From positions 1 through 35,550 of the forward strand of contig LFLF01000025.1 of the NCBI GenBank assembly GCA_001184395.1: a stretch of DNA of 35,550 nucleotides, in the 5' to 3' direction. The stretch is from Candidatus Paraburkholderia calva (GTDB lineage Bacteria > Pseudomonadota > Gammaproteobacteria > Burkholderiales > Burkholderiaceae). This document shows, piece after piece, positions 1 through 31,954 of the stretch. The stretch's first letter is position 1, and every line of letters begins with the position of its first letter. The notes below the pieces were generated by a model. The model was not told the DNA's origin. It was given only the letters and a program-made list of their open reading frames with translations, and searched no databases. Made by a program: the position numbers and the translations under genes.

Positions 1-127
1 AGCGAGCCGCAGGCCCAGGCGCAACACCCTGGTGGACCGGAAATCCAGGCGCAAAGCCTCACTCACGATGAATCTGCCGCTGTTTGCGCCTGAATCGATG
101 AATACAACCGGCTGGTTCAGCGTTGCC
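1..127 (-). repeat. Outward-facing inverted repeat, left copy (probable IS end)
   Basis: The reverse complement of this stretch matches 35379-35504 almost base for base; I count one indel and two substitutions. Read on the minus strand it runs out of the window and keeps an open frame (TLNQPVVFIDSGANSGRF...). The right copy lost that frame by a one-base deletion near 35396. The homology stops sharply at about 127, as expected of an element boundary. The right copy interrupts an autotransporter gene, which fits insertion of a mobile element. I do not recognise the family and no transposase core is visible, so IS identity is inferred. Confidence 0.65.
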
Positions 128-281
128 CTATACGATTGGCTAGCTATCGGGTCGGACGCGGCCAGGTAATGATGACGTTTCGCCAGCCGGGCAAGTCATA
201 TCTTCAGGATACCAAATGTTACTTCTAGTCAAGTCAGCGCCACTGGTAAGGTACACACTCTCGTACCCACCGGAATTCGCC

Positions 282-517
282 ATGCCAATCACCCGTATTT
301 TCCGCAACGGAAACTCACAAGCAGTTCGTATTCCCGCCAAAGTCGCGTTCCCCGAAACGCAAGCCGAAGTCGAGATCAAGCGTATTGGTGATGCGCTTCA
401 CATTCATCCCGTGTGCCATTCGCTCGCGGGGCGCTCGACTGCTTCAGACGCTTCAATCCTGAGTTCATGGCGGAAGGCCGTGGTGAACATGAACAAGCTG
501 ACCGGAAGGAACTGTGA
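282..517 (+). pseudogene. vapB: VapB-type antitoxin (AbrB/SpoVT fold), frameshifted
   Basis: The ATG at 282 opens MPITRIFRNGNSQAVRIPAK, the N-terminal swapped-hairpin AbrB/MazE domain typical of VapB. After about residue 52 the frame is lost at the G-run near 437-441. Restoring one base gives the usual tail (...ALDCFRRFNPEFMAEGRGE...) and a TGA at 515-517 overlapping the vapC GTG at 514, the classic coupled arrangement. As it stands, translation continues in the wrong frame to 536. The DNA-binding half would survive, while the C-terminal segment that normally wraps VapC is replaced by unrelated residues. Seen: the domain, the frameshift and the overlap. Inferred: loss of neutralising function. 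Confidence 0.85.
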
Positions 518-924
518 AGCCACGTTATATGCTTGACACCAACATGTGCATCTACCTGATGCGTAACCAGCCCGAACAGGTCGCGCGGCGCTTCGAGCAA
601 TGCTGCGTCGGCGAGGTGATCATTTCGTCGATCACGTATTGTGAGCTACAATACGGTATCGTCGCCAGCGAAACGCCCGAGCGCGACGCCGTCGCGCTGG
701 CCGCGTTGACCGAACTCATCGGGGTCGCGCCGCCCGGCAAGGAAACGGGTATGCGTTACGGACCTATCCGGCTCGCCACGCGCGAGCGGAAGTCGGACAT
801 GCTCGACAAGCTCATCGCGGCGCACGCCACCGCGCTGGACGTGCCGCTCGTGACGAACGATGTCAAAGGCTTCAGTAATCTTCACGGCTTGCAAGTCCAG
901 AACTGGCTGGAGTTAGCGGCGTAG
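514..924 (+). CDS. vapC: VapC-family PIN-domain ribonuclease toxin
   Basis: A full-length PIN-domain toxin of 136 residues starting at GTG 514. The acidic active-site positions are all present: Asp in YMLDTN near residue 8, Glu in the CELQYG segment, Asp in MLDKLIAAHA near residue 97 and Asp in LVTND near residue 115. The family consists of Mg-dependent endoribonucleases that cleave tRNA or other RNAs and are held inactive by VapB. The gene overlaps the vapB end by four bases when the vapB frame is restored. The toxin reads intact although its antitoxin is frameshifted, which is unusual because the reverse order of loss is expected. It may be silent, weakly active or neutralised by an antitoxin elsewhere. 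Confidence 0.9.
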   Translation: MKPRYMLDTNMCIYLMRNQPEQVARRFEQCCVGEVIISSITYCELQYGIVASETPERDAVALAALTELIGVAPPGKETGMRYGPIRLATRERKSDMLDKLIAAHATALDVPLVTNDVKGFSNLHGLQVQNWLELAA

Positions 925-1022
925 CACGCTGTCGCGGTGGGTCTCGCGCCGAACATATTGATTTGGATGACGAATCGATCGGAAGCGACGTCTTGCTGCA
1001 CGAGACGCCGCTTCCACTCGCA

Positions 1023-1455
1023 TCAGACAGTCACGCGCATAACGCCGCCGCTCGACAGCAATCGCACGCGTTGTCCGGCGCGGAACATCTGACCGTCGTC
1101 GGCCTGCGTGATCGCGCGCAGGTCGCCGTTGGCGAGCCGCACGGTAATTTCGAGCCCGTTCTGCCGTTCCAGCCGCCCTTGCACTTCATTGCCCACAACC
1201 GCGCCTGCAATCCCGCCGATGATGCTCGTCAGCAGCGAACCGCGTCCGCCGCCGAACGCGCCGAAGGGCGCGCTGCGGTCGGCGTCGATGGCCACGCGCC
1301 GCACGCTCTCGACGGTCGCCATGCGCACGGTCTGTTCGTGCTGCGTCTGCGTGCTGTCGTAGACGTCGGCTGAATCGTTCATGCTGGCGCAGCACGCTCA
1401 TGCCGAGCGTGCACAGCACCGTCAGCGCGCATACCGCGACAATGGATGACTTCAT
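1023..1455 (-). pseudogene. Glycine-zipper outer-membrane lipoprotein, frameshifted in the signal peptide
   Basis: ATG at 1455 opens a lipoprotein signal (MKSSIVAVCALTVLCTLG). About 20 codons later the frame shifts by one base. The restored frame continues CASMNDSADVYDSTQ, with a Cys-Ala-Ser that would be the lipobox cleavage point. The body holds a glycine-zipper segment (LLTSIIGGIAGAVVGNEVQG), as in SlyB/17-kDa-antigen proteins, followed by a small beta domain ending VMRVTV. About 140 residues when restored, normal for the family. The mature part starts with an internal ATG at 1382, but without the signal it could not be exported. Role in the family: envelope integrity. Divergently transcribed from the lipoprotein gene at 1696. 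Confidence 0.75.
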
Positions 1456-1695
1456 GGTTCCCTCTTCGAATGGTCGATGTTGTCGATGTCTTGTCCGTAA
1501 TCGTGACCGCTTCATGGGTGCGGAGTCCGCGTGGACATGAAGACATCGTAGAGAGGCCGGGTGAGGGCAGAATGAGGAGGCATCGGCTCGGGCGGGAAGC
1601 CGCGCATCGCTTGACCTGTCTTCGTCGAGCGCTTATACAGGACGTTCCGCGCGCGCCACGCAAGGCGCGCACCGATCGCGACCGGAGCCTCAACT

Positions 1696-2412
1696 ATGAC
1701 AAAAACCGCCAGATTCGGGCTGCCGTCCTTGTTGACGACAGGGCCGCTCACGGCGGGCGCCTGCGCGAAGTTGGTCATGAAGACGACCGGCGCGGCGGGC
1801 GCGGTGCCCACGCGATAATCGAGCGCGGTATTGCTCGCGAAGCGGCCGTCGCTGGTCTGCGTGCCGTTGGCCGCGATCGCGACGCCCGCCAGATTCGCGC
1901 TGCCGGATGCGCCGTAAAACAAAAAGGCGGTGCCGTCGAACATGGTGAGCAGAGTGGCGTCGTCGGTCGATCCTTTGAGCGTGCCCTTGTAGACGCCGCC
2001 GGACGGCATCGTCGTGGTGACCGAACCCGCGGGCGGGATGGTCGGGTTGCCCGTCGAGCAGGCGGCGAGAGTTGCGGCAAGCGCTGCGGCGCAAAGCGCC
2101 TTCACTGCCAACGCGGACGGCCTGTACAATGGGCGCGCCATGTCGCTGGGCGGCGCGACCGACACGCGCCTCGCCATCGGGCTGGATGGCTACGCGGCGG
2201 GCCAGACCTCATCCGGCTGCATCTTCCAGGGCAACATCTCGCCGCATGCGGGCGTGAACGCCTACGACATCTCGGTGACCTTCGGCTTCGCGCCCTGCCC
2301 GCTGCCCGGCGCGACCATGAATGGCAACGCGGTGCTCGACGGCCCCCGCCTGATGGTCGCGTTGCCGAGCAAGGACCGCAGCAACGTCTTCCTCTTCGAT
2401 GGTCGGAAATAG
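1696..2412 (+). pseudogene. Two-domain lipoprotein gene split by an exact internal inversion
   Basis: The C-terminal half lies on the plus strand from about 2107 (ANADGLYNGRAMSLGG ... VFLFDGRK stop at 2412). The signal peptide and N-terminal half lie on the minus strand from 2105 down to 1701 (VKALCAAALAATLAACS, lipobox LAAC, then STGNPTIPPAGS ... GSPNLAVF). Turning 1701-2106 around gives one frame of 238 codons: a GGAG ribosome site at 1684-1687, ATG at 1696, M-T-V-K-A-L, the whole N-domain, then GCG-GTT-TTT joined in frame to GCC-AAC-GCG. Both joints fit to the base. The restored protein resembles Burkholderia lipoproteins of unknown function with repeated YxGTL/DG..L domains. As it stands neither half can be made properly. 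Confidence 0.8.
1701..2106 (-). other. 406-bp inverted segment inside the lipoprotein gene
   Basis: Boundaries are deduced from the frame: reversing exactly this interval rejoins start codon, signal peptide, N-domain and C-domain with no gap. The two edges share only a couple of bases in inverted orientation. I see no recombination-site-like inverted repeats and no invertase gene next to it, which favours a one-off rearrangement over a programmed switch. Confidence 0.7.
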
Positions 2413-2609
2413 GTGCTGCCCGCCGTCCGTATGGGACCGAAAAAGAACTCGCCATTAGCTTACATAGGCGATTTGTGCCCTAAGATTCTTTTGCCCACAG
2501 TTTGAGTCGCGGCGTTTGCGTCCATCCAGTCAGCCTGCGCGCATCGCCGTAGCAGCAGTCGTCTTGTTCCAGTGCCTTTTCAAAAGCCTTAACGACAGGA
2601 GACAACCAG

Positions 2610-3867
2610 ATAAACGCAACGCTCAAGCTCTTGCCACTCGCGCTCTGCGCGATGATCGCCTGCGCGCCGTCTGCCTACGCGGCCCAGGACAACGTCAATT
2701 CGCTGTCGAATTTCAAGCAGACCGGCACGAGCACGCCGGCCGAGACCATTCCGCAAAGCGGCCAGACCACCGATGCGCTGCGCAAGCACCTCGACCAGAT
2801 CAAGCTGCCGCCGGGCTTCAAGATCGAACTGTATGCGGTCGTGCCGGAAGGGCAATGGCAATCGAGCCGTCCACGGGCGTGGTGTTCGTCGGCACGCGCA
2901 AGAACCGCGGGCAGGTGACGGACCGCACGCATCAGCGCGTGGCGAGCGATGTGGCGCAGTTCGCGTCGTCGGTCATGTTCAAGGTGCCCAACGGCGTGTG
3001 CTTCTCGCCGGACGGCCTGCTCTACGTGGTCGAGCAGAACCGCGTGCTCGGCTTTCCGGCCGCACAGTTCTTCGGCGAGGGCAGTCCCGACGTCGGCGCG
3101 GCCGTGGTCGTCGCACAGGGCAAGCTGATCCCGACGCAGTTCGAGAGCTTTAACCACGGCGCGCGCTATTGCCGCGTCGGGCCGGACAAGAAGCTGTACA
3201 TCGCGCTCGGTCAGCCGTGGAACGTGCCGCCGAAGGACAAGTGGCCGGAACTGAACAAGGCGGGACTCGCGGGCATCATCCGCATGGATCAGGACGGCAA
3301 GAATCGCGAAATCTATGCGCATGACATTCGTAATTCGATCGAGCTCGACTTCAACCCGAAGGACAAGTCGCTCTGGTTCACCGATAACCAAGTGGACGGC
3401 ATGGGCGACGATCAGCCGCCGGGCGAACTCAACCACGCAACCAAGACGGGCGAACAGTTCGGCTTTCCGGTACGGCGGCGGACATACGCGGACCGTCGAG
3501 TACAAGGACGAGACGCCGCCGGCGGGAGTCGTGTTTCCGGCCGCCGAATTCCCGGCGCACGAGGCCGATCTGGGCATGTCGTTCTATAGGCAAGATGTTC
3601 CCGCAGAAGTACCAGGGCGGAATCTTCGACGCGGAGCACGGCTCGTGGAATCCCACCAAGCCGATCGGCGCGTGCATCATGTTCACGCCGCTGAAGAACG
3701 ATGGCACGGCGGGCGATCCCGAAGTTTTCGCGGAAGGCTGGCTCACGCAGAGCGCCGAATACATGGGCCGCCCGGTGGATGTGCAGATGTTGCAGGACGG
3801 CTCGCTGCTCGTCTCCGATGACTACGCGGGCGCTATCCACCGCATCTCGTATGTAGGTGGCAAATGA
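2610..3867 (+). pseudogene. PQQ-type glucose/sorbosone dehydrogenase, start lost and three frameshifts
   Basis: The translation resembles soluble sugar dehydrogenases of the GSDH beta-propeller family (SVMFKVPNGVCFSPDGLLYVVE, HDIRNSIELDFNPKDKSLWF, GGIFDAEHGSWNP). These are periplasmic and pass electrons to cytochrome c. The expected start, 8 bases after an AGGAG site, reads ATA at 2610-2612 where an ATG is expected. An export signal follows (LPLALCAMIACAPSAYA). Frame changes lie near 2855, 3465 and 3590, and the last frame ends at TGA 3865-3867. That stop overlaps the ATG of the next gene (ATGA), so the two were translationally coupled. Restored length of about 420 residues is normal. It cannot be active as it stands. 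Confidence 0.85.
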
Positions 3868-4191
3868 AGCCCGCGCTCGTAGCCGTGTTTGCCGCGCTGA
3901 GCGGCGCGCTGCTGATGGCGTCGCAGGCATCACTCGCCGCCGGCGACGTCAAGGCAGGGCGCGCGAAGACGTCGGCATGCGCGACATGTCACGGCATCGA
4001 CAGCATGTCGAAACTGCCGGAGGCGCCGAATCTCGCCGGTCAGACGGAGGAGTATCTCGTGAAGGCGCTGAACGATTTCCGGCTCCGGCGCTCGCCAGAA
4101 CGAGATGATGTCGATGATGGCGAAAACGCTCTCGGACGCGGATGTCGCGAACCTCGCCGCGTACTATCACAGCCTCGGCGAGAAGCAGTAG
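3864..4191 (+). pseudogene. Periplasmic class I cytochrome c, frameshifted near the C-terminus
   Basis: MKPALVAVFAALSGALLMASQASLAA is a clear Sec signal. The haem-binding CATCH (CxxCH) follows at about residue 40, with the usual LPEAPNLAGQTEEYL region. An extra base near 4082 shifts the frame in NDF. The other frame gives the normal tail with a methionine-rich axial-ligand region (QNEMMSMMAKTLSDADV ... YYHSLGEKQ) and a stop at 4189-4191. About 108 residues when restored. Its start overlaps the end of the sugar dehydrogenase gene, so it is probably that enzyme's electron acceptor. The shifted product keeps the haem-attachment site but lacks the distal ligand segment and is presumably non-functional. 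Confidence 0.85.
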
Positions 4192-4234
4192 CGCGAAACA
4201 ATCGGCGGGATCGTTAAAATTTTTATTGGTATGC

Positions 4235-4262
4235 CTGACTTAGGGGACTAAGGGTTTATACT
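4235..4262 (+). promoter_or_regulatory. Candidate sigma-70 promoter
   Basis: CTGACT at 4235-4240 and TATACT at 4257-4262 with a 16-base spacer. It is followed 40 bases later by a strong terminator with no reading frame between, suggesting a short transcript. Confidence 0.4.
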
Positions 4263-4267
4263 AACTC

Positions 4268-4328
4268 TTGTCTCCTCTATGCCTCAATTGATTTGGATTC
4301 AAGCCGCTCATTGCAGCGGGCTTTTTTT
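4268..4328 (+). ncRNA. Candidate ~60-nt small RNA
   Basis: The interval runs from the expected start point after the TATACT box to the T-run of a hairpin terminator. It contains no ribosome site with a usable frame. It lies between two convergent dead genes, so it could also be only the 3' end of the cytochrome transcript. The sequence shows promoter-like and terminator elements; the RNA itself is inferred. Confidence 0.35.
4301..4328 (+). terminator. Rho-independent terminator
   Basis: AAGCCGCT and AGCGGGCTT pair around a six-base loop, with one bulged G, and are followed by a run of seven T. It ends the sugar dehydrogenase/cytochrome transcript or the candidate small RNA. Confidence 0.7.
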
Positions 4329-4383
4329 CGGCTGCACGGTGGGTGTTGGCCGTGCTTTCTGCCTCTTGCGCGAAGCAGTCCGG

Positions 4384-5737
4384 TCAGGCTCCTTTGCCGC
4401 GCGTAGCCAGCAATTCCGAGCGCCCGATCACCTCTTTTGCCTGATCGGACTTGTCGGCATCCGAAAACCCCGCTGCTTCGATCACCGGTGTGAGCGCCCT
4501 GAGGGCCACCTGCGGCTTGGCGCTGCGCAGCGATGCCATGCCGTCGTTCCATGCGTGCAGCATCTGCTTGGCGATCCAGTGCCAGCGTGTCTCGTTCCTC
4601 GCCGCCTCGGCCAAGTCCTTTCCCGTCGATACCGCTCGCACAGCGCTTCGACCATCTCGCGATAGCGCCTGGACGGAATGCTGAGCCGCGTATTGAAGAA
4701 TCGCTCCAGCGTCTTGCCCGGCGTCCACGTCTTGTGGCCGTCGATGCTGAGCCCCGGCAGATTGCTCGCAAAGCGCGGGTACGCCTGCGTCGTGACGATG
4801 TCATATGCGGGTGTGTAGACCACGTCGTCGATCGTCGAATACAGCAGCGCGATGTTCTTGGCGTGGCAGTCCGCGTTGCGCACCACGTATCACGTATTGG
4901 CGATCAGCAGCCAGCCGATCTGCTCGGCCTCACGCCGCCAATTCGCCGCGCCGATATATGGCTTCGTCGCGTTGAGCACCTGTTCGGTCGATGGCCGGTA
5001 CTTCTCGGGCGGCGGCAGGCCGAGCAGACTTGTATGCGTCTTCCACGCCGAAAACCGGCTTGCCCTGCTCGTCAACATCGAAGCGGTCCACGACGAGCAC
5101 GCGGCCGTCGTCCGACATTGTGGTCTTCGCAACGCACGCGACGCCGAGCCTCGCGAGCACCTGCATCGAGTAATGCTAATTGAAGCCGAGATAAGACGTC
5201 TGCTCGTCCGATCCTTTGATGATGTGCCGGCTCGTGCGCAGCGTCTGCTTGCTGACCGGCGTCTGCATCGAGGGGAATTCAGGCGCGAGAAACTTGGGTA
5301 CCGCGCCCGAGATCATCGCGCGTGTAATCAACGCACGAGTTCGGCGAAGCGGGTCGGTCGTGATGTCTTCGTGCAGCAGGCTTTTCAGATCGAGCAGCTC
5401 GAGTTCGCCGCCCGGCACGCCGCCTTCGGGCGCGACCGTGACCCGGCCAATGCCCGCGCCGCCGATCACCGCCAGCAGCGACAAAGCCGTGCCGTCGAGA
5501 TAGGGGCCGAATTCCTCGCGGATCACCTGAAAGAGAAAGCCTTCCGGCAGGTTCTAGCGGAAGAAGGGATGCAGATCGCGCGGCCACACCCACGCGTCTT
5601 CGCGCACCGGCATGGTCAGGCTCGAAGTCTTCGGCGCGTGCATCGGCGATGTAACGCAGCGCGTAATCGTCCGCCTGGCGATAGAGATGAGCGACAGGCC
5701 TGCCCTTTACGTACACGTGAAGGCGCATGCCGTTCAT
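4384..5737 (-). pseudogene. hipA: HipA-type serine/threonine kinase toxin, multiply broken
   Basis: Start at ATG 5737 (MNGMRLHVYVKGRPVAHLYR). The remaining protein is spread over several frames. It shows the N-subdomain (TMPVREDAWVWPRDLHPFFR), then a CAG-to-TAG type stop before NLPEGF, the ATP/core region (TSRHIIKGSDEQTSYLGFN followed by TAG where Glu is expected), the catalytic NADCHAKN and the metal-binding YDIVTT, and an intact-looking tail to 4384. HipA phosphorylates glutamyl-tRNA synthetase in E. coli and is neutralised by HipB. It lies one base after hipB, as in normal hipBA operons. With at least two stops and several frameshifts the kinase is dead. Confidence 0.85.
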
Positions 5738-5738
5738 G

Positions 5739-6015
5739 CTATCGGTCTCCTGCTGCGTCGCCTGCCTCGCGCTGTTCGCTCAGCACGTCTTCGAGCGTGC
5801 GCGCATGGCTGCGCTTGACGGTGCGCAGGTCGTTAGCCTGCGGCTTCAAAGAGCCGCACGAACGCAGAAACGCTCATGTCGCCCTGCGCGAGCGTTTCCA
5901 TGCGCGCGAGCGTGGTGCGCGCGATACCGGCGCGCTCAGCCAGTTCCTTTTGCGAAAACCCGGCGGCACGGCGGGCGTTTTTCAGCATGTCTCCGATATC
6001 GGCTAATGTGGTCAT
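5739..6015 (-). pseudogene. hipB: HipB-type Xre-family antitoxin/repressor, frameshifted
   Basis: ATG at 6015 opens MTTLADIGDMLKNARRAAGF followed by SQKELAERAGIARTTLARME, a canonical Cro/CI helix-turn-helix. The frame ends after FEAAG at a TAA made by one inserted base. The next frame gives the normal tail (DLRTVKRSHARTLEDVLSEQ ... GDR) and a TAG at 5739-5741, directly before the hipA start. The truncated 60-residue product keeps the whole DNA-binding domain and could in principle still bind the palindromes just upstream. Role: represses its own operon and neutralises HipA. Confidence 0.8.
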
Positions 6016-24326: not shown

Positions 24327-24348
24327 GCGTTACTTCGACTACTCGAGA

Positions 24349-26352
24349 TCAGCGATCCAGGAACGGACGCAGTTTGTCGGCGCGGCTCGGGTGCATGAGC
24401 TTGCGCATCGCCTTGCTTTCGATCTGGCGGATACGTTCACGCGTCACGTCGAACTGCTTACCCAGTTCTTCGAGCGTGTAGTCCGAAGCCGTGTCGATGC
24501 CGAAGCGCATGCGCAGCACCTTCGCCTCACGCGGCGACAACGCGTTGAGTGCGTCGTCGATGGCGGCGCGCATGTTCGCGTGCGCCGCCGCTTCCGCCGG
24601 CGAGGTCGCGCCCTGATCTTCGATCATGTCGCCGAGCGTCGCGTCGGCATCTTCACCGACGGGCGTTTCCAGCGACACAGGCTGCTTCGCGATTTTGAGG
24701 ATGCCGCGAATCTTCTCTTCCGGCATTTCCATGCGCTCGGCCAGCACCGACGGATGCGCTTCCTGTCCCGTCTGTTGCAGGATTTCGCGCGAGATGCGAT
24801 TCAGCTTGTTGATAGTTTCGATCATGTGCACCGGCACGCGGATCGTGCGCGCCTGATCGGCGAGCGAACGCGTGACGGCCTGACGCACCCACCACGTCGC
24901 GTAGGTCGAGAACTTCCAGCCACGGCGATATTCGAACTTGTCCACCGCCTTCATCAGACCGATGTTGCCTTCCTGGATCAGATCCAAGAACTGCATGCCG
25001 CGATTCACATACTTCTTCGCGATCGAAATGACGAGACGCAGGTTCGCCTCGATCATCTCGCGCTTGGCCTGACGCATCTTCAGTTCGGCAGCCGTCATCT
25101 GACGGTTGATCTGCTTGAGCTGCTTGAGCGACAACGCAATCGCGGCTTCGATGTCAATGAGCTTCTGCTGCTCGGCCTGAATCGCCGGCAAGCTGCGCTC
25201 GAGCGATGCGCCGTATTGCTTCGACCCGGCTGCTGCGCACGTCGTCCATTCGAGATCGGTCTCGTGACCGCGGAACGTTTCGACGAACTTCTCGCGCGGC
25301 ATGCCGCAACGGTCAACGGCGATCGCCAGCACACGCCGCTCGATCTCGCGAACTTGCGCGACTTGCTGCTGCACGTCGGCGCACAGACGATCGATGGTCT
25401 TGGCCGTGAAGCGGATCGAGCCGAGTTCACGCTGGATTTCAGCGCGCGCTTTCTCGATAGCCTTCGTCGCGACAGCGCTCGAACCCTTCGTATTGCTTGC
25501 CTGTTCGGCCAGCACACTTACGCGCGCGAAGATTTCGAGGCAGTCCGCCTTCAGCTGCTTCAGACGCACTTCGTTCGAAGCGCCAGATTCGCCGCCTTCC
25601 AGATCATCTTCGCTATCCTCATCGTCGACGGAGTCATCGCTATCGGTTTCCATATCCGACGACTCGGTCGTGTCGGACGCCGACATCTCTTCCGTGACTT
25701 CGTCTTCTTCCTTGAGACCGTCGACCAGGTCGTCGATCTTCAATTCACCCGATTCGACGTGCGCGGCATCGGCGAGAATCGTCGCGACAGTGGACGGGCA
25801 GGCGGCGATGGCCTGGATCATCTCGTGCAGGCCGTCTTCGATACGCTTCGCGATGGCGATTTCGCCGGCGCGCGTGAGCAGTTCGGTCGCGCCCATTTCT
25901 CGCATGTACATGCGAACCGGGTCGGTCGTGCGGCCGAACTCCGAATCGACGGTGGACAGCGCGTTTTCCGCTTCTTCGTCCGATTGTTCGTCGGACACGA
26001 CCGTGGGTAAGTTTTCGCTCAGGAGCAACGTTTCCGCATCGGGCGCTTGCTCGTAGACGGCGACGCCCATGTCGTGAAACGTGCTGATGATGGTTTCCAT
26101 CGCGGCCGTTTCCGCGAAATTGTCAGGCAGGTGATCGTTGATCTCGGCGTGCGTGAGATAACCACGTTCCTTACCCAATTGAATGAGCGCGCGCATCTGG
26201 CGCTGACGCTCTTCATTTTGTTCCGCGGTCATTGTGGCATCGGGCGGAATGATGCCGGCCTGGCCTTTCCCCTTGCTTGCGCGGCGGCCCGCGGTTTTGC
26301 GCGCCGGAGCGACGATATCCAGATCCGAATCTTCCCGATCAAAACTTGCCAT
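24349..26352 (-). CDS. rpoD: RNA polymerase sigma-70 factor, RpoD type
   Basis: Intact, about 667 residues from ATG 26352 ([20 protein letters not shown]), chosen for the GAGGAG site 6 bases before; the frame itself runs open to 26442. Region 1.1 ([20 protein letters not shown]), region 1.2 ([20 protein letters not shown]), an acidic non-conserved insert ([20 protein letters not shown]), region 2 ([20 protein letters not shown], then [20 protein letters not shown]), region 3 and region 4 with its helix-turn-helix ([20 protein letters not shown]). It directs housekeeping transcription. It stands alone, without the rpsU-dnaG neighbours of classic rpoD operons, beside the replication genes. That supports a secondary chromosome with an essential gene, or a second rpoD copy. 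Confidence 0.95.
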
Positions 26353-26665
26353 ACTTTCTCCTCGACAGGCTTGCTCGGCGATGACAGGTCCCCGGAGGTG
26401 AGCGTAACGGCCCACAATGATATCGATGACTTGTTCGACCACGGACGGCGGCTAGCTGAGAATCGCTTCGAGCAAAACGACACAATCCGCATATGGGTTG
26501 CGAAATGTGTTTTTTCAATCGCCATTTAAGGCGTAATTTAAGAGTATAGTAGGCATTGTTACCCTGCAGCAGATTTTTGCGGAATATTTGCGCAGGGCGC
26601 GTTTCGGGATTGCGGGAAATCCTCGACTTCACCTGATGAATACGCATGAGCGTTCGCTTTTACCT
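26353..26665 (-). other. Leader region of rpoD
   Basis: 313 bases without a gene between rep and rpoD. On the minus strand a TATACT box (26548-26543) could be the rpoD -10, with no convincing -35. A small palindrome CGCCATTTAAGGCG lies at 26520-26533. Nothing else recognised. Confidence 0.45.
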
Positions 26666-27961
26666 TTATTCATTTTGGTAAGCGCCCGCATGCGTCAACG
26701 AAAGCGGTGCCAATAAAAACTTCGTGTATAAGGTCTGAATTGGCCGGCGCGGTTCTTTGGCCGAAAGACCGGCTACGCCCGGTGCCGACTGCTTTAGCCG
26801 CAGTAATTGCTTTAGCCCGGAAAGGTGCTGTGCGATGGGTGTATCCTGCCGCAAGTCGGCTACTTGGCCGACAGATCTCGATTGCCTGTCTTCGATGCGT
26901 TCGACGTTGGGCATCGGTCGGATTCGGCCGGTGCGAAGCGCATTCACGAAAGTTTTTGCCCATGCTCCGGCCTGAACACGCGGTCTCGTTTCGTCACGGT
27001 GAATGACGGTCACGGAGGATGCATCGTCCGCAACGAGATAGGTCCGCAAACCGTCATCGCTTTCGAATTGACGACCGGCGTATTCGAGAGCGGTTGCCTC
27101 TGCTTCAGCGTTAAGCGATTTATCGATACTGCGCTCGATCGCAGCCGCATGCACGGTACGGACGCGATGCGCGAAATCAACCGGTGTGCCCAACAGGCTG
27201 CGCAGATAGTTGATTGGATGCGTCGCGCGCTTCAAATGGTCCCAGCAAGCCTCAACGACATCAGACAGTTTCTTGGCATGCAAACGTGCTTCGCGCATCA
27301 GCTTGAAAATCAGTAAATCACGAAAACCCAGTGCGCGCAGGCGCTCAAGGTCGGCAGGGACACGTCTTGGTTGTCTTTTTTGAGAGGTAGGGATTAGATC
27401 CTTATATATAGGGCCGTCTGCCAGCGTGGCAGACGGCATGGACAAAGAATGGTTCGGCAACGGACGCGCGCTCAATGTTGACGCTGGATTGACTGCTTCC
27501 GCGTGCGTCTCGTCTCGCTCGTCGGTGACCAGGCCAAGCAGCGAGGCGGCCATAGGCGTGAGATGCAGATACGCGCGACCGAATAGGCCTGCACCGCCGT
27601 AGCGAGTCTGTGGCGGCCGGGTGATGAAGTTGGCCGCCTCTAGATCGTCGAGGCTGCGATAGAAGGTTCGCATCGACTGCATGGCACGTCCGGTGAGTAA
27701 TTCACGCCGGGCAAAAATGGCTGCGTATGGACGGCCGGCGTCGACGGTGCGCGCGAGCGCCGCCAGAAGACTTCGCGCTCTCGCAGGAATGGCCACGATG
27801 TGATTGGCGCGGTGGGCTGCGCGAAAGATCACCCACGGTAAGTTGGATCGATCGCAGGCGAACTGATCGAGCGTCTGCTGATCGTATTCTCCAGCTTGGG
27901 CAGGAGTGAGGTGAGGGCGAATTGGAACCTCGCCGGCAACGGAATGTTGCACGATATACAT
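26666..27961 (-). CDS. Replication initiator protein of a secondary replicon
   Basis: Intact, 431 residues from ATG 27961 (MYIVQHSVAGEVPIRPHLTP). I recognise the N-terminal pattern of the Rep proteins that accompany parAB on Burkholderia secondary chromosomes and megaplasmids: DQFACDRSNLPWVIFRAAHR, then IVAIPARARSLLAALARTVD and a winged-helix-like YAAIFARRELLTGRAMQSMR, continuing TFYRSLDDLEAANFI. It would bind the origin near its own gene and start replication. Third gene of the minus-strand block parA-parB-rep. The 330-base gap between parB and rep carries repeats, a palindrome and a candidate antisense RNA that could control its synthesis. Assignment is by context and partial similarity. 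Confidence 0.75.
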   Translation of the reverse strand: MYIVQHSVAGEVPIRPHLTPAQAGEYDQQTLDQFACDRSNLPWVIFRAAHRANHIVAIPARARSLLAALARTVDAGRPYAAIFARRELLTGRAMQSMRTFYRSLDDLEAANFITRPPQTRYGGAGLFGRAYLHLTPMAASLLGLVTDERDETHAEAVNPASTLSARPLPNHSLSMPSATLADGPIYKDLIPTSQKRQPRRVPADLERLRALGFRDLLIFKLMREARLHAKKLSDVVEACWDHLKRATHPINYLRSLLGTPVDFAHRVRTVHAAAIERSIDKSLNAEAEATALEYAGRQFESDDGLRTYLVADDASSVTVIHRDETRPRVQAGAWAKTFVNALRTGRIRPMPNVERIEDRQSRSVGQVADLRQDTPIAQHLSGLKQLLRLKQSAPGVAGLSAKEPRRPIQTLYTKFLLAPLSLTHAGAYQNE

Positions 27962-27989
27962 GTCAAGCCGACCATTCTTGGAAAATGGA

Positions 27990-28005
27990 AGTCAAACGCT
28001 TGACT
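27990..28005. promoter_or_regulatory. Palindrome overlapping a plus-strand -35 box, upstream of rep
   Basis: AGTCAA, four bases, TTGACT: perfect 6-bp arms 29-44 bp upstream of the rep start. A further GTCAA lies at 27962-27966. The right arm is the -35 box of the candidate antisense promoter, so a protein bound here would govern both. Confidence 0.5.
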
Positions 28006-28027
28006 GCCGATCACTATCCGCTAAACT
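28000..28027 (+). promoter_or_regulatory. Sigma-70 promoter opposite the rep leader
   Basis: TTGACT at 28000-28005 (five of six consensus bases), 16-base spacer, TAAACT at 28022-28027 (four of six). It points away from rep. Confidence 0.5.
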
Positions 28028-28033
28028 TCGAGA

Positions 28034-28135
28034 TGTGCACCTCGTCACCCGATTGGCGTCGGGGAGCGAACGGGCGAGTAGCAGTTAAGCCCGAATTCAA
28101 AGGCCTTCGGTTGGCGCCGAAGGCCTTTGTCTTTC
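28034..28135 (+). ncRNA. Candidate antisense (countertranscript) RNA to the rep leader
   Basis: From the expected start of the plus-strand promoter to the end of a perfect hairpin is about 100 bases, with no gene. It is complementary to the 5' leader of the rep message, which runs the other way from parB toward 27961. Antisense RNAs of this layout set copy number in many plasmids. The sequence shows promoter-like and terminator-like elements; the function is inferred. Confidence 0.45.
28098..28129 (+). terminator. Perfect 13-bp hairpin, probable terminator
   Basis: CAAAGGCCTTCGG and CCGAAGGCCTTTG pair perfectly around a six-base loop and are followed by TCTTTCTTGT. The T-rich tail is on the plus strand. 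It would also form in the rep leader RNA. Confidence 0.65.
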
Positions 28136-28293
28136 TTGTGTCTGGTCGTTACATAAATCGATCCTTTTCGATTTAAAAAGAGCTTTAAAAAGAGCTAAGT
28201 GCTTGATTCTGAATGAGTCTCTAGTGGGTTTGCCGCTGAGTGTTTTGGTGACGAACATAACTAACTGATTTCAAAAGAAAACCTACTAGAGCA
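28131..28293. other. AT-rich repeat region between parB and rep, candidate origin
   Basis: Markedly richer in A and T than the rest of the window. It contains an exact tandem repeat of TTTAAAAAGAGC (28172-28183 and 28184-28195) and an inverted repeat CTCTAGTGGGTTT (28219-28231) / AAACCTACTAGAG (28279-28291) with one mismatch. AT-rich DNA with short tandem repeats beside rep is the usual place for an unwinding element. No perfect DnaA box is seen here. Confidence 0.45.
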
Positions 28294-29265
28294 TTATTTC
28301 TGCTCTGTCTCGCTGAGTGATTTGTTGATGAAGTCCGCAATCCGCTGGGCCCATTGCTCGGCTTCGTTTGCATCTTTATCAAAGAAGCGCACCCCTACCA
28401 CACCGTTTCTGGTTGAGACCTCGCAGACTTTCTTTCGGCCGGCTCGTACGACGGTTGTGCTTGGCGCCACGATCTTCGGCTTATCCGTGGCAAGCGACAC
28501 CGCTTTGTCTTGCGTGAAGTTTTCGTCTTCGACTAGACGGCGCACCGCTTCGATCACCTTATCTGCTTTACCCGCTTCAGCAAGCGCGGCAAGCTTCTGT
28601 GCTGCGTTACTTCCGAGCCGTTCCGGTCGTTCAGCGAGCGCTGCCTTGGCCACTTCCGGAATGGCGTCAAACGAGAAAATTCGTGTGACATGGCTCTTGC
28701 TGAGTCCGGCGCTTTCTGAAATCTCCGCGCGAGTCAGTCCGCTCAACTCCTGAAGTCTTTTGAAGTTCCAATACTTTTCGAAGTCGGTGAGCGACGGCGC
28801 AAGCAGGTTTGAGAAGAACGCAGCGAACTCGATTTCGCCCTCTTCGATTGATGCAACGTTCGCCCGGATCGTTTGGCGGCCGAGTTCGCGATATGCCGCG
28901 ACACGGTTATGCCCCGCAACGATCTCGAACCGATCCTCGGGCAATGTGCGAACCAAAATTGGCGTGGCGAGCGCGTGCTGAGCGAGGTTGTTCTTCAACT
29001 CCTGGAACTGCTCAGGCGTGAGCTTGCGACGTCGTCCGCTGACCTCCACAAGCGCGTCGAGCGGCACCTCGAGTGCCGCCCTTTCCTGTAGTTGTCCTTC
29101 CAGTTCCTTGATCCGCGCTTGCGCCGTGTTGATGCGGTATTGCGCGTCCATCAGGCGTCCCGGCGATGTCCGGGGTTCGGTGTTGACGGGCCGGCTCTGC
29201 GCTGCTTCCGCTGGCTTGTTGCCGACGTTTGCCGTCTTTGCCAGTAGTCTGTCGCCAATGCCCAT
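28294..29265 (-). CDS. parB: ParB-type partition protein
   Basis: Intact, 323 residues from ATG 29265, which directly follows the parA TAA (TAAATG), so translation is coupled. A coiled-coil-prone start (RINTAQARIKELEGQLQERA), then the ParB N-terminal domain with HALATPILVRTLPEDRFEIV and AGHNRVAAYRELGR, which corresponds to the CTP-binding GERR box. The central helix-turn-helix is LTRAEISESAGLSKSHVTRI. The C-terminal dimerisation region runs to SLSETEQK. It binds parS sites near the origin and works with ParA in segregation. No obvious parS palindrome was found inside the window by eye. Confidence 0.92.
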   Translation of the reverse strand: MGIGDRLLAKTANVGNKPAEAAQSRPVNTEPRTSPGRLMDAQYRINTAQARIKELEGQLQERAALEVPLDALVEVSGRRRKLTPEQFQELKNNLAQHALATPILVRTLPEDRFEIVAGHNRVAAYRELGRQTIRANVASIEEGEIEFAAFFSNLLAPSLTDFEKYWNFKRLQELSGLTRAEISESAGLSKSHVTRIFSFDAIPEVAKAALAERPERLGSNAAQKLAALAEAGKADKVIEAVRRLVEDENFTQDKAVSLATDKPKIVAPSTTVVRAGRKKVCEVSTRNGVVGVRFFDKDANEAEQWAQRIADFINKSLSETEQK

Positions 29266-30459
29266 TTAAACCTCCGTCTTATTCCACGCGCGAACGAATT
29301 GCGCGTCGAGGTGTTCGGCGAGCCGGTCGAGCGGCTCCTTGAATCGGTTATATGCAGTGGTGCTACCGTCAGGCTTCGACAAGTCGTAGACCGTGGAAAG
29401 CTGTGCGGACGCGCCCTTCGGCACCGTCGATTCGGGAATTTCGAACGGTAGCACGCGATCGCCATAGGCTTTTTGCAGCCAGCCCCGTACGACGCGTGAG
29501 ACTTCGTCGGACTTGGCCTTGGTCATGATTACGTTGACGAAATCGAAGCGCTTTTGCTCGAGCACGCCCGGAAGCTTCTTCGCGATGTCCGCGAAGAGAT
29601 GCCAGAACTGAGTCGAGCTGGCGAAGTCGAGCGCCTCGGGTGGGCAGGGCAGCAGAATGGCGTCGGACGCGAGGAGCGCGTTGATGGTCAGATAACTGAG
29701 CGCGGGCGGCGTGTCGATGACGACCGCGTCGTATTCTTCCGTCAGCGGCATCAGTCCCCTACGGACGATCTCCCAGAACTCGAACGTGCTGTCATTGAGT
29801 ACCTTGGCTGGGATCTCAAATTCCGCATCGAAAAGAGATGACGACGCGGGGATCAGATCGAGGTTGTGCCAGTACGTCTGCTGCACCGCATACTGGAGCG
29901 TGGCCTGATCGCCGTAGATGAGCGGGAGGAGGGTTTGATCGTCGGAAATCTCGGCGTCAGGCGCCCAGCCGCACAATTGCGTGGTGGTGCCTTGCGGATC
30001 GCAGTCAATTACGATAACCTTTCGACCTAGCAGCGTCAACGCTTGTGCAGCTGACACGGCGGTGGTCGTCTTGGCGACGCCACCCTTGAAGTTGGCAATG
30101 GTGACGATGCGCCCGCGCTTTCCCTCCGGCCGCCGCACACGCTCTTTCGTCGCGCGAATCCAGGTCAGCGCTTCTTCGAGCGTGAACTCCTTGCTGCGGC
30201 CCGCGCCCTTGGACGTGCCCGCGGGCAATTCGCCCTTGGTCGTCAGATATTGAAACCGCTGCTTGTCGATGCCGCACAACGACGCAACCTGCGCGCTCGT
30301 AAATGTTGGCGCGTTTTTGCGCGGATATGGCTCCAACATCGCATCGCGGATCTGATTGAGGATGTCAGTGGCTTGGGTGGCCACTCCCAAAAGCGTTTCG
30401 ATCGAAACGGATTGATCGACTTCGGGAAGCCGAGCGCTTAGCATAGAGTTTGCAGTCAC
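29266..30459 (-). CDS. parA: ParA-type partition ATPase
   Basis: Intact, about 397 residues. The start is GTG 30459 or ATG 30444 (MLSARLPEVDQSVSIETLLG); an AGG seven bases before the GTG favours the former. The N-terminal part carries a MerR-like helix-turn-helix (FTSAQVASLCGIDKQRFQYL), as in ParA proteins that repress their own operon. The deviant Walker A is NFKGGVAKTTTAV, the A' motif VIDCDPQGTTTQL and Walker B YDAVVIDTPPALSYL. It drives plasmid or chromosome segregation with ParB. A hairpin with a U-run lies directly upstream, and the frame is open well beyond the start without coding features. Confidence 0.93.
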   Translation of the reverse strand: MTANSMLSARLPEVDQSVSIETLLGVATQATDILNQIRDAMLEPYPRKNAPTFTSAQVASLCGIDKQRFQYLTTKGELPAGTSKGAGRSKEFTLEEALTWIRATKERVRRPEGKRGRIVTIANFKGGVAKTTTAVSAAQALTLLGRKVIVIDCDPQGTTTQLCGWAPDAEISDDQTLLPLIYGDQATLQYAVQQTYWHNLDLIPASSSLFDAEFEIPAKVLNDSTFEFWEIVRRGLMPLTEEYDAVVIDTPPALSYLTINALLASDAILLPCPPEALDFASSTQFWHLFADIAKKLPGVLEQKRFDFVNVIMTKAKSDEVSRVVRGWLQKAYGDRVLPFEIPESTVPKGASAQLSTVYDLSKPDGSTTAYNRFKEPLDRLAEHLDAQFVRAWNKTEV

Positions 30460-30476
30460 TGCCGAGCCTGAGTAAG

Positions 30477-30522
30477 CAAAAAATTCTTCAGTTTGTGGAA
30501 AACACACTGCAAACCGAAGAAT
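30477..30522 (-). terminator. Terminator or attenuator hairpin directly upstream of parA
   Basis: On the minus strand ATTCTTCGGTTTG pairs with CAAACTGAAGAAT (one G-T pair), loop 14 bases, then a run of T to about 30477. The parA start follows within about 20-35 bases, too close for a separate promoter to fit easily after the T-run. Transcripts entering from upstream would have to read through it. Confidence 0.6.
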
Positions 30523-30637
30523 AAACGTCGAACCGCTAAACCTCAAGTAAACTCTGAAGTTGTTGAAGCGTCGATTCGGGCGTTTTTGCAACACCAGCAG
30601 CCGGTCACTCTCGCGAACTAAAGTGATTCCTAAACGT

Positions 30638-31954
30638 TTACCGTCTTCCGCGCGGTTGTGGATCGAGCGTTCGTCGCCGCGCCTCGAACCTAGGCGGCGC
30701 AGCGATCCGATCGATCCCCGAAAACGGATTTGATGCCAGATAGCCAGTTTGGACGAGCCATTCGCACAGTGCCAACAGGATCGAGCGGGCGGTTTCGCGG
30801 CTCCGGTCAGAAAGCGGGCCCACAAATGGCCTCCACCCGGCGAGCTGCCGCTCGACACGCCCCGAAGCAATCCAGCGCGCAGCGGGTTGCGGGTCGGCGA
30901 GAAAAGACGCGAGATATTCGCTGCAATCGCTTGTGTCGAGCGAGGAGAGTGGCTTCTGCTTTTCGACAAGCGCCCACAGTAAGAGCCGCTCGGCTTCGCG
31001 CCGATAGGCGCGCATCGTGTGCTCGCTGGCTGAGCGCGCGGCGAGCCAGGCGTGAATCGCCGCGCTATCAGTGGGAAAGGAACCGGTGGCGCGATTTGTC
31101 CCCTTTGATCCATCGAGCGATGCCGGCACATAAAGCGCTTCCAGTGGCGCAACCGTTACCGCGCCGCTGCGCGCATCGGCGCGATCGGACAGCGAATCCG
31201 GCCATTGCCGCCGCGGAATTACGGCAAGTGGCGAGATCGTGTGCGAAAGCGCCTGCGCATTTAACCGCAACCAGTCGACGACCCGTTGCGCGCCTTTGGG
31301 GCCGAGTCGCGGAACATGCGTGTACCAGCGATGCCGCTTCGCCTCCACCAGAGCGATAACATCGCCGATCGTGCTGAGCTCGGCCGCGGCGAGCCGTTGC
31401 GCCACTGGCGGTTCGAACCAGCCATCTACCGGATGATCCGGATGCGGATCGTGCGCGAGATTCGCCTCCATCCGTGCGAGCGCATCGGCCTGCCGGCGTC
31501 TCAGGCGCGCATTGCGCGCCGCCCGTCGATCCACTGACGGCGAAGCGCCTTCCGGATATTCGTCCTCGAATAACGCGAGCAGCTCCGCCTCGGTAAAAAC
31601 ACCGTCCGGATCGACGCGCTCCCGAAACGCCTCCAGCGAAGGCGCGCTTGCCGCAGACGTATCGAATTGCGGAATGCTGCCAGGCCGAAGCCTCAGCAGC
31701 CGCGCGGCTTCGACGTCGTGTGCGCGGCGTGCGAGCACCGAGAGCGTGTCGCGCAATACCGCAATCAGCCGGCGTGTGGTGCGGACATCCGCGCTGCTAT
31801 CGCCATAAGATGCGTGCAACTGCACTTCCGCCACACCATCCAGATAGCCGCGATACAGTGCGAAATGTTGTCGTGTAAGAAGCGTGGGCAGGGCGACGCG
31901 CGCCTTCGATACGGCGCCGGAACCCACTGCTGAGCCCGTTTTCTCACGCGTCAT
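30638..31954 (-). pseudogene. Tyrosine recombinase lacking its catalytic domain
   Basis: Starts at ATG 31954 (MTREKTGSAVGSGAVSKARV); the frame is open to 31993. The first ~300 residues are the N-terminal domain seen on large integrases of Burkholderia secondary replicons, including WYTHVPRLGPKGAQRVVDWL. A SAM-like core-binding domain follows (SEHTMRAYRREAERLLLWAL ... ILLALCEWLVQTGYLASNPF). The frame ends after RRTLDPQPRGRR at 30638, exactly where the catalytic Arg...His-x-x-Arg...Tyr domain should begin. No frame downstream to parA shows those motifs. The protein could bind DNA but not cut it. Probably a deletion brought parA next to it. Confidence 0.75.

Follow-up and report, generated by a model that had tools for sequence, protein, structure and literature searches.

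A small lipoprotein gene probably broken by a one-off illegitimate inversion in Candidatus Paraburkholderia calva

The window, i.e. the whole 35,550-nucleotide stretch of contig LFLF01000025.1 that was analysed, carries near its left end the parts of a single small lipoprotein gene. Its start codon and its back half (C half) lie on the plus strand, and its front half (N half) lies between them on the minus strand. The parts are the following, with kin denoting related genomes that hold the gene.

1683..1687, plus strand: CGGAG, a ribosome-site-like motif belonging to the original gene; it lies in the left flank, which has not moved, and nearly all 18 aligned kin have it ahead of their start codon.
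1696..1709, plus strand: original start codon and first codons, still in place; 1696-1707 are identical to 12 bases of the relative G066.
1707..2099, minus strand: inverted segment with the N half and the signal peptide, minus the first codons; its strand is opposite to that of its flanks by comparison with 26 of 26 named loci.
2100..2106, no strand: filler of 7 nt, without counterpart in kin.
2106..2107, no strand: site of the loss of ~45 bp (15 codons) present in kin, from protein and DNA alignments.
2107..2412, plus strand: C half with its stop codon, in native orientation and on the strand of its flanks; it is 56-74% identical to the C halves at the 26 named kin loci.

Both pieces are open, the N piece over 135 codons on the minus strand (1701-2105) and the C piece over 101 codons on the plus strand (2107-2409). 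The N piece has a hydrophobic stretch ending in LAAC, and LAAC or a near variant is found in the kin proteins read in frame. By the lipobox rule we take LAAC to be a lipobox with its cysteine, which on a reading of the sequence identifies the product as a lipoprotein; the intact kin product is ~252 aa long. Searches of Pfam and NCBIfam with both window halves gave no family, and neither a Pfam search with one intact kin protein nor a comparison of a profile of 25 kin proteins with solved structures gave a match. Within an intact kin protein, no repeat relationship between the two halves was detectable, and the window's genome yielded no further copy of the gene. No literature on the locus was found, which says nothing about what is in print, since the gene lacks a name under which it could be looked up.

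Several other features of the window can be described. An open antitoxin/toxin-like pair is located at 282-924 (a MazE-type antitoxin, just below its cut-off, and a PIN-domain protein). Positions 1-130 show ~85% identity to a repeat present on many contigs of the genome G003, often at contig ends, and are probably the end of an insertion sequence at the contig edge. At 2595-4190, a gene that is intact in kin (a 444-residue frame in G005) is here found in three reading frames (2607-3864), and the short open frame that follows it to ~4190 resembles a small cytochrome c, judging from its sequence. On the minus strand, adjoining ParB-like and ParA-like genes occupy 28294-31152 (Pfam), and with them occurs a sigma-70-type gene at 24349-26442; together, these genes probably represent the partition region of a secondary replicon. 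An Rfam search of the window at gathering scores gave no match.

The initial annotation took the two halves for one gene, and the kin confirm this. The N and C pieces were searched apart in 40 relatives (24 of the same genus) and in the window's own genome. The N piece has matches in 15 of the 40 relatives, all of them among the 24 same-genus ones, and the C piece in 19 of the 40, some of these matches being weak and of paralogue level. In each of the 15 relatives holding the N piece, the C piece is adjacent to it and shares its strand. Twelve of the 15 extracted kin frames span both pieces. Of the other three, L014 has a frameshift in the C half, and L009 and L011 were read in the wrong frame and are uninformative in that extraction; in the search of the genus genomes, the lipoprotein gene of these two (genomes G001 and G017, respectively) is one open frame. 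A scan with the C half yielded 26 named Caballeronia-group loci, among them those of 'Candidatus Burkholderia humilis' UZHbot5 and of 'Candidatus Paraburkholderia kirkii' UZHbot2, and both pieces have the same strand and the same order in 26/26 of these loci, which were picked by their C half. An orthologue is present on one strand in 32 of the 57 other genus genomes (E of 1e-73 or better), while 6 show weak, paralogue-level matches and 19 no match. Matches split across strands occur in the window's genome only, the 58th of the genus. A homologue thus spans both halves in a single frame, and among the 32 genus genomes with an orthologue none has the halves as separate genes in the arrangement of the window.

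On a larger scale, the window was compared with stretches of five kin with an unbroken copy (G014, G004, G005, G001 and G011), in which 20 to 28 kb of the window was spanned and only matching parts were considered. The block around 1703-2069 is the sole out-of-line block in all five. In G018 the block is likewise reversed with respect to its flanks, but window positions 24347-31585 are also on the other strand, a larger rearrangement.

Both edges of the inverted segment were aligned at the DNA level with 18 of the 26 named kin. The left flank matches the kin through the start codon and the next codons. The initial annotation had noted an orphan start codon and ribosome site at this edge, and a GGAG-type site with a start codon is indeed common to nearly all of the 18 kin (L041 is without it). 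Positions 1701-1707 match the kin gene start with a mean of 5.07 of 7 bases (27 rows), as compared with 2.67 of 7 for the alternative that follows from the initial annotation. The native reading is better in 26 of the 27 rows and equal in one (L041, with a wrongly picked start), and random 7-mers of the window match the kin gene start with a mean of 1.60, and with 4.04 at the 99% level. On these alignments, 1701-1707, counted with the inversion in the initial annotation, are native left-flank sequence.

The relative G066 has the same 12 bases, ATGACAAAAACC, as window positions 1696-1707; they are followed there by one differing base and then by the inverted segment, from window position 2098 on the minus strand. 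The minus-strand match in the window's own genome begins at 2099, and the G066 match reaches 2098. The CGC at 1707-1709 can be assigned by eye to either side, i.e. it forms a 3-bp microhomology. The next match in G066 corresponds to window position 2866, and most of the lipoprotein gene is gone there. At this G066 locus (L118, G066:C182) the start is kept, and a deletion that extends into the following gene has removed the rest.

At the other edge, the filler (2100-2106) matches the kin bases before the C half in 1.23 of 7 positions, which is lower than for random 7-mers at the gene start (1.60); the value comes from 26 rows, three of which (L041, L051 and L059) are out of register, their match starting later. 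No other copy of this 7-mer is present on either strand of window positions 1-6000, and the kin match resumes from 2107. Between the two pieces the kin carry 13 residues by the cut of the initial annotation, or 15 codons (~45 bp) with the corrected edge, the exact edge of this loss being read by eye from the alignment. In principle, the 45-bp loss could predate the inversion. The breakpoints were set from kin at ~70% identity and one partial relative, G066, because the lipoprotein gene was not found in the genomes nearest by core region, namely G042 (93%), G015 (93% over part) and G065 (91% over part).

These edges do not agree with the exact 406-bp inversion proposed initially (1701-2106), as the native left flank extends to ~1709, the inverted part, ~390 bases long, ends near 2099, and ~45 bp are absent before 2107. 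Nor would reversal restore the whole gene with no other change, since the conserved codons (13 by the original cut, 15 by the corrected one) would still be absent. Both joints had also been described as fitting to the base. They do fall in frame, but many bounds would serve. By coordinate arithmetic, positions 1696 (start codon) and 2107 (C half) share the same phase, so reversal of a segment from a to b frames both joints if and only if a + b is a multiple of 3. Because both joints come into frame together, they represent one coincidence (~one in three given the phase). That a reversal is in frame and 'exact' does not, on its own, point to a switch.

The window's genome comprises 4.2 Mb in 301 contigs, and 49 of the 57 other genus genomes measure 5.1-10.3 Mb. 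The remaining eight are of at most 3.9 Mb (G003, which is 60% complete, G018, G042, G046, G055, G065, G066 and G071), and no intact lipoprotein gene was found in any of them: seven have no orthologue (G066 keeps the remnant), and the copy of G018 is frameshifted. In UZHbot5 (L041) the match runs from residue 35 on, and the start region is altered. The loss of the gene suggests that the lipoprotein is dispensable in several small genomes, and it is probably dispensable in the lineage of the window too. Within the window, 28 kin-matched intervals were defined as matches to G005 frames of at least 120 residues, a rough count in which a few may be antisense; 15 are interrupted (this gene included), 8 are open and 5 partial. 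Judging from its genome size and its kin, the organism would be a leaf symbiont, and most leaf-nodule endophytes of this kind have undergone genome reduction, according to PMC8362603. That general sequencing error broke the surrounding genes looks unlikely, because all five matched core genes on one other contig are open. In the window's genome, the Ku matches (L140 and L141, at G000:C278:6137-6710) overlap in two reading frames that contain stops; the Ku gene may therefore no longer be intact, and canonical end joining may be lost.

An error confined to the locus, i.e. a chimeric reversal made during amplification or assembly, has to be weighed separately. Chimeras of amplification are known to produce reversed joints with short microhomology and loss, which the present joints would fit, and the genome is a draft in many contigs. 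However, an artefact would have had to create two separate joints at one place, the core genes of the other contig are intact, and the locus lies amid many broken genes, the same gene being lost or broken in other small genomes. We regard such an artefact as improbable.

Surface lipoproteins are common targets of genetic switches, and both halves of this one remain open and would be rejoined in frame by reversal, as expected if the segment were inverted reversibly in a phase-variation programme, by a site-specific recombinase acting at unusual sites. The edges point the other way. The absence of long inverted repeats, already remarked in the initial annotation, holds, with none beyond chance: the longest exact inverted match is 4 bp within 15 bp of the edges (random pairs have a mean of 4.74 and 95% of them reach 4), and 7 bp within 25 bp or 40 bp (16% and 42% of random pairs, respectively; n = 300 draws). 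With respect to the kin at ~70% identity, ~45 bp are absent and 7 nt have been gained, whereas conservative recombination neither loses nor adds bases; this loss plus filler at the joint indicates a non-conservative origin, which argues against a site-specific switch. A scan of 15 window sequences, the two halves of this gene included, detected no recombinase domain. Among the genus genomes searched, the reversed orientation is seen in the window's genome only, and in none of the 32 others with an orthologue. Invertons, as described in PMC11892184, are flanked by inverted repeats of 10-40 nt and flipped reversibly by an invertase. The segment studied here is likewise a short intragenic one that has been reversed, but no repeat of that length is found at its edges, and bases were lost and gained. 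With no repeats and with non-conservative joints the switch was rejected, its probability being very low. Of the two options offered at first, a very recent illegitimate event or a switch, the kin comparison supports an illegitimate inversion. The idea of two separate divergent genes that were never one, which the open frame of each half might suggest, has next to no probability and is ruled out by the kin, where a single continuous frame covers both halves, and by the start codon and ribosome site, which adjoin the wrong end.

Whether the inversion is very recent was approached through selection, with L063 excluded from the comparison as frameshifted. The dN/dS values of the window's C half versus eight kin are 0.31-0.48, as compared with 0.09-0.37 among eight kin pairs, whereas the N half (1710-2099) shows no rise (0.25-0.49 versus 0.30-0.54 in kin pairs). 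Of the columns invariant in kin, the window alters 2 of 26 and 3 of 40 in the two halves; when each of 25 kin was left out in turn, 24 altered 0 or 1 invariant column per half, and L041 altered 4 of 30 and 2 of 41. The pattern is consistent with relaxed selection on the C half and with an inversion that is not ancient. No date for the inversion can be drawn from relaxed selection, because both halves are stop-free and the N half has no increased dN/dS. The open halves favour a very recent event, but the raised dN/dS of the C half does not, and this part of the initial claim is weakly supported.

We therefore return to the illegitimate inversion. As explanation we favour a one-off event of this type that broke a small lipoprotein gene of a genome undergoing gene loss, with a probability of about 0.88 on the sequence comparisons. 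A break directly behind the fourth codon and another near the middle of the gene would have freed a fragment, which end processing and error-prone joining would have put back reversed, by alternative end joining or by template switching during replication. The outcome would be a pseudogene with no intended second state. Loss, filler and a 3-bp microhomology are the trace of error-prone joining or template switching, not of a conservative recombinase. The locus shows what an inversion pseudogene should show, namely an intact collinear orthologue in kin and junctions with little homology, with loss and filler.

Illegitimate micro-inversions typically consist of a short reversed segment with a few base pairs of microhomology, filler and a small loss at the joint. 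The pseudogenes that they create resemble the present one in this junction pattern, amid many broken genes, and differ in that both halves are here still open. Among confirmed spontaneous inversions in Salmonella, PMC3411829 gives a deduced cut-off for junction homology of at least 12 bp, longer than the 3 bp found here, with a filter that favoured long homology. It is rather unlikely, though conceivable from the sequence, that in this shrinking lineage, with its seemingly frameshifted Ku, genes are repeatedly broken by short inversions carrying microhomology and filler; if so, such inversions would constitute a mutational signature of decay in symbiont genomes, one overlooked by the usual pseudogene callers. 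In general, the locus looks like ordinary gene decay and not like a genetic switch, and it offers a clean, well-bounded case of gene loss via micro-inversion in a reduced genome.
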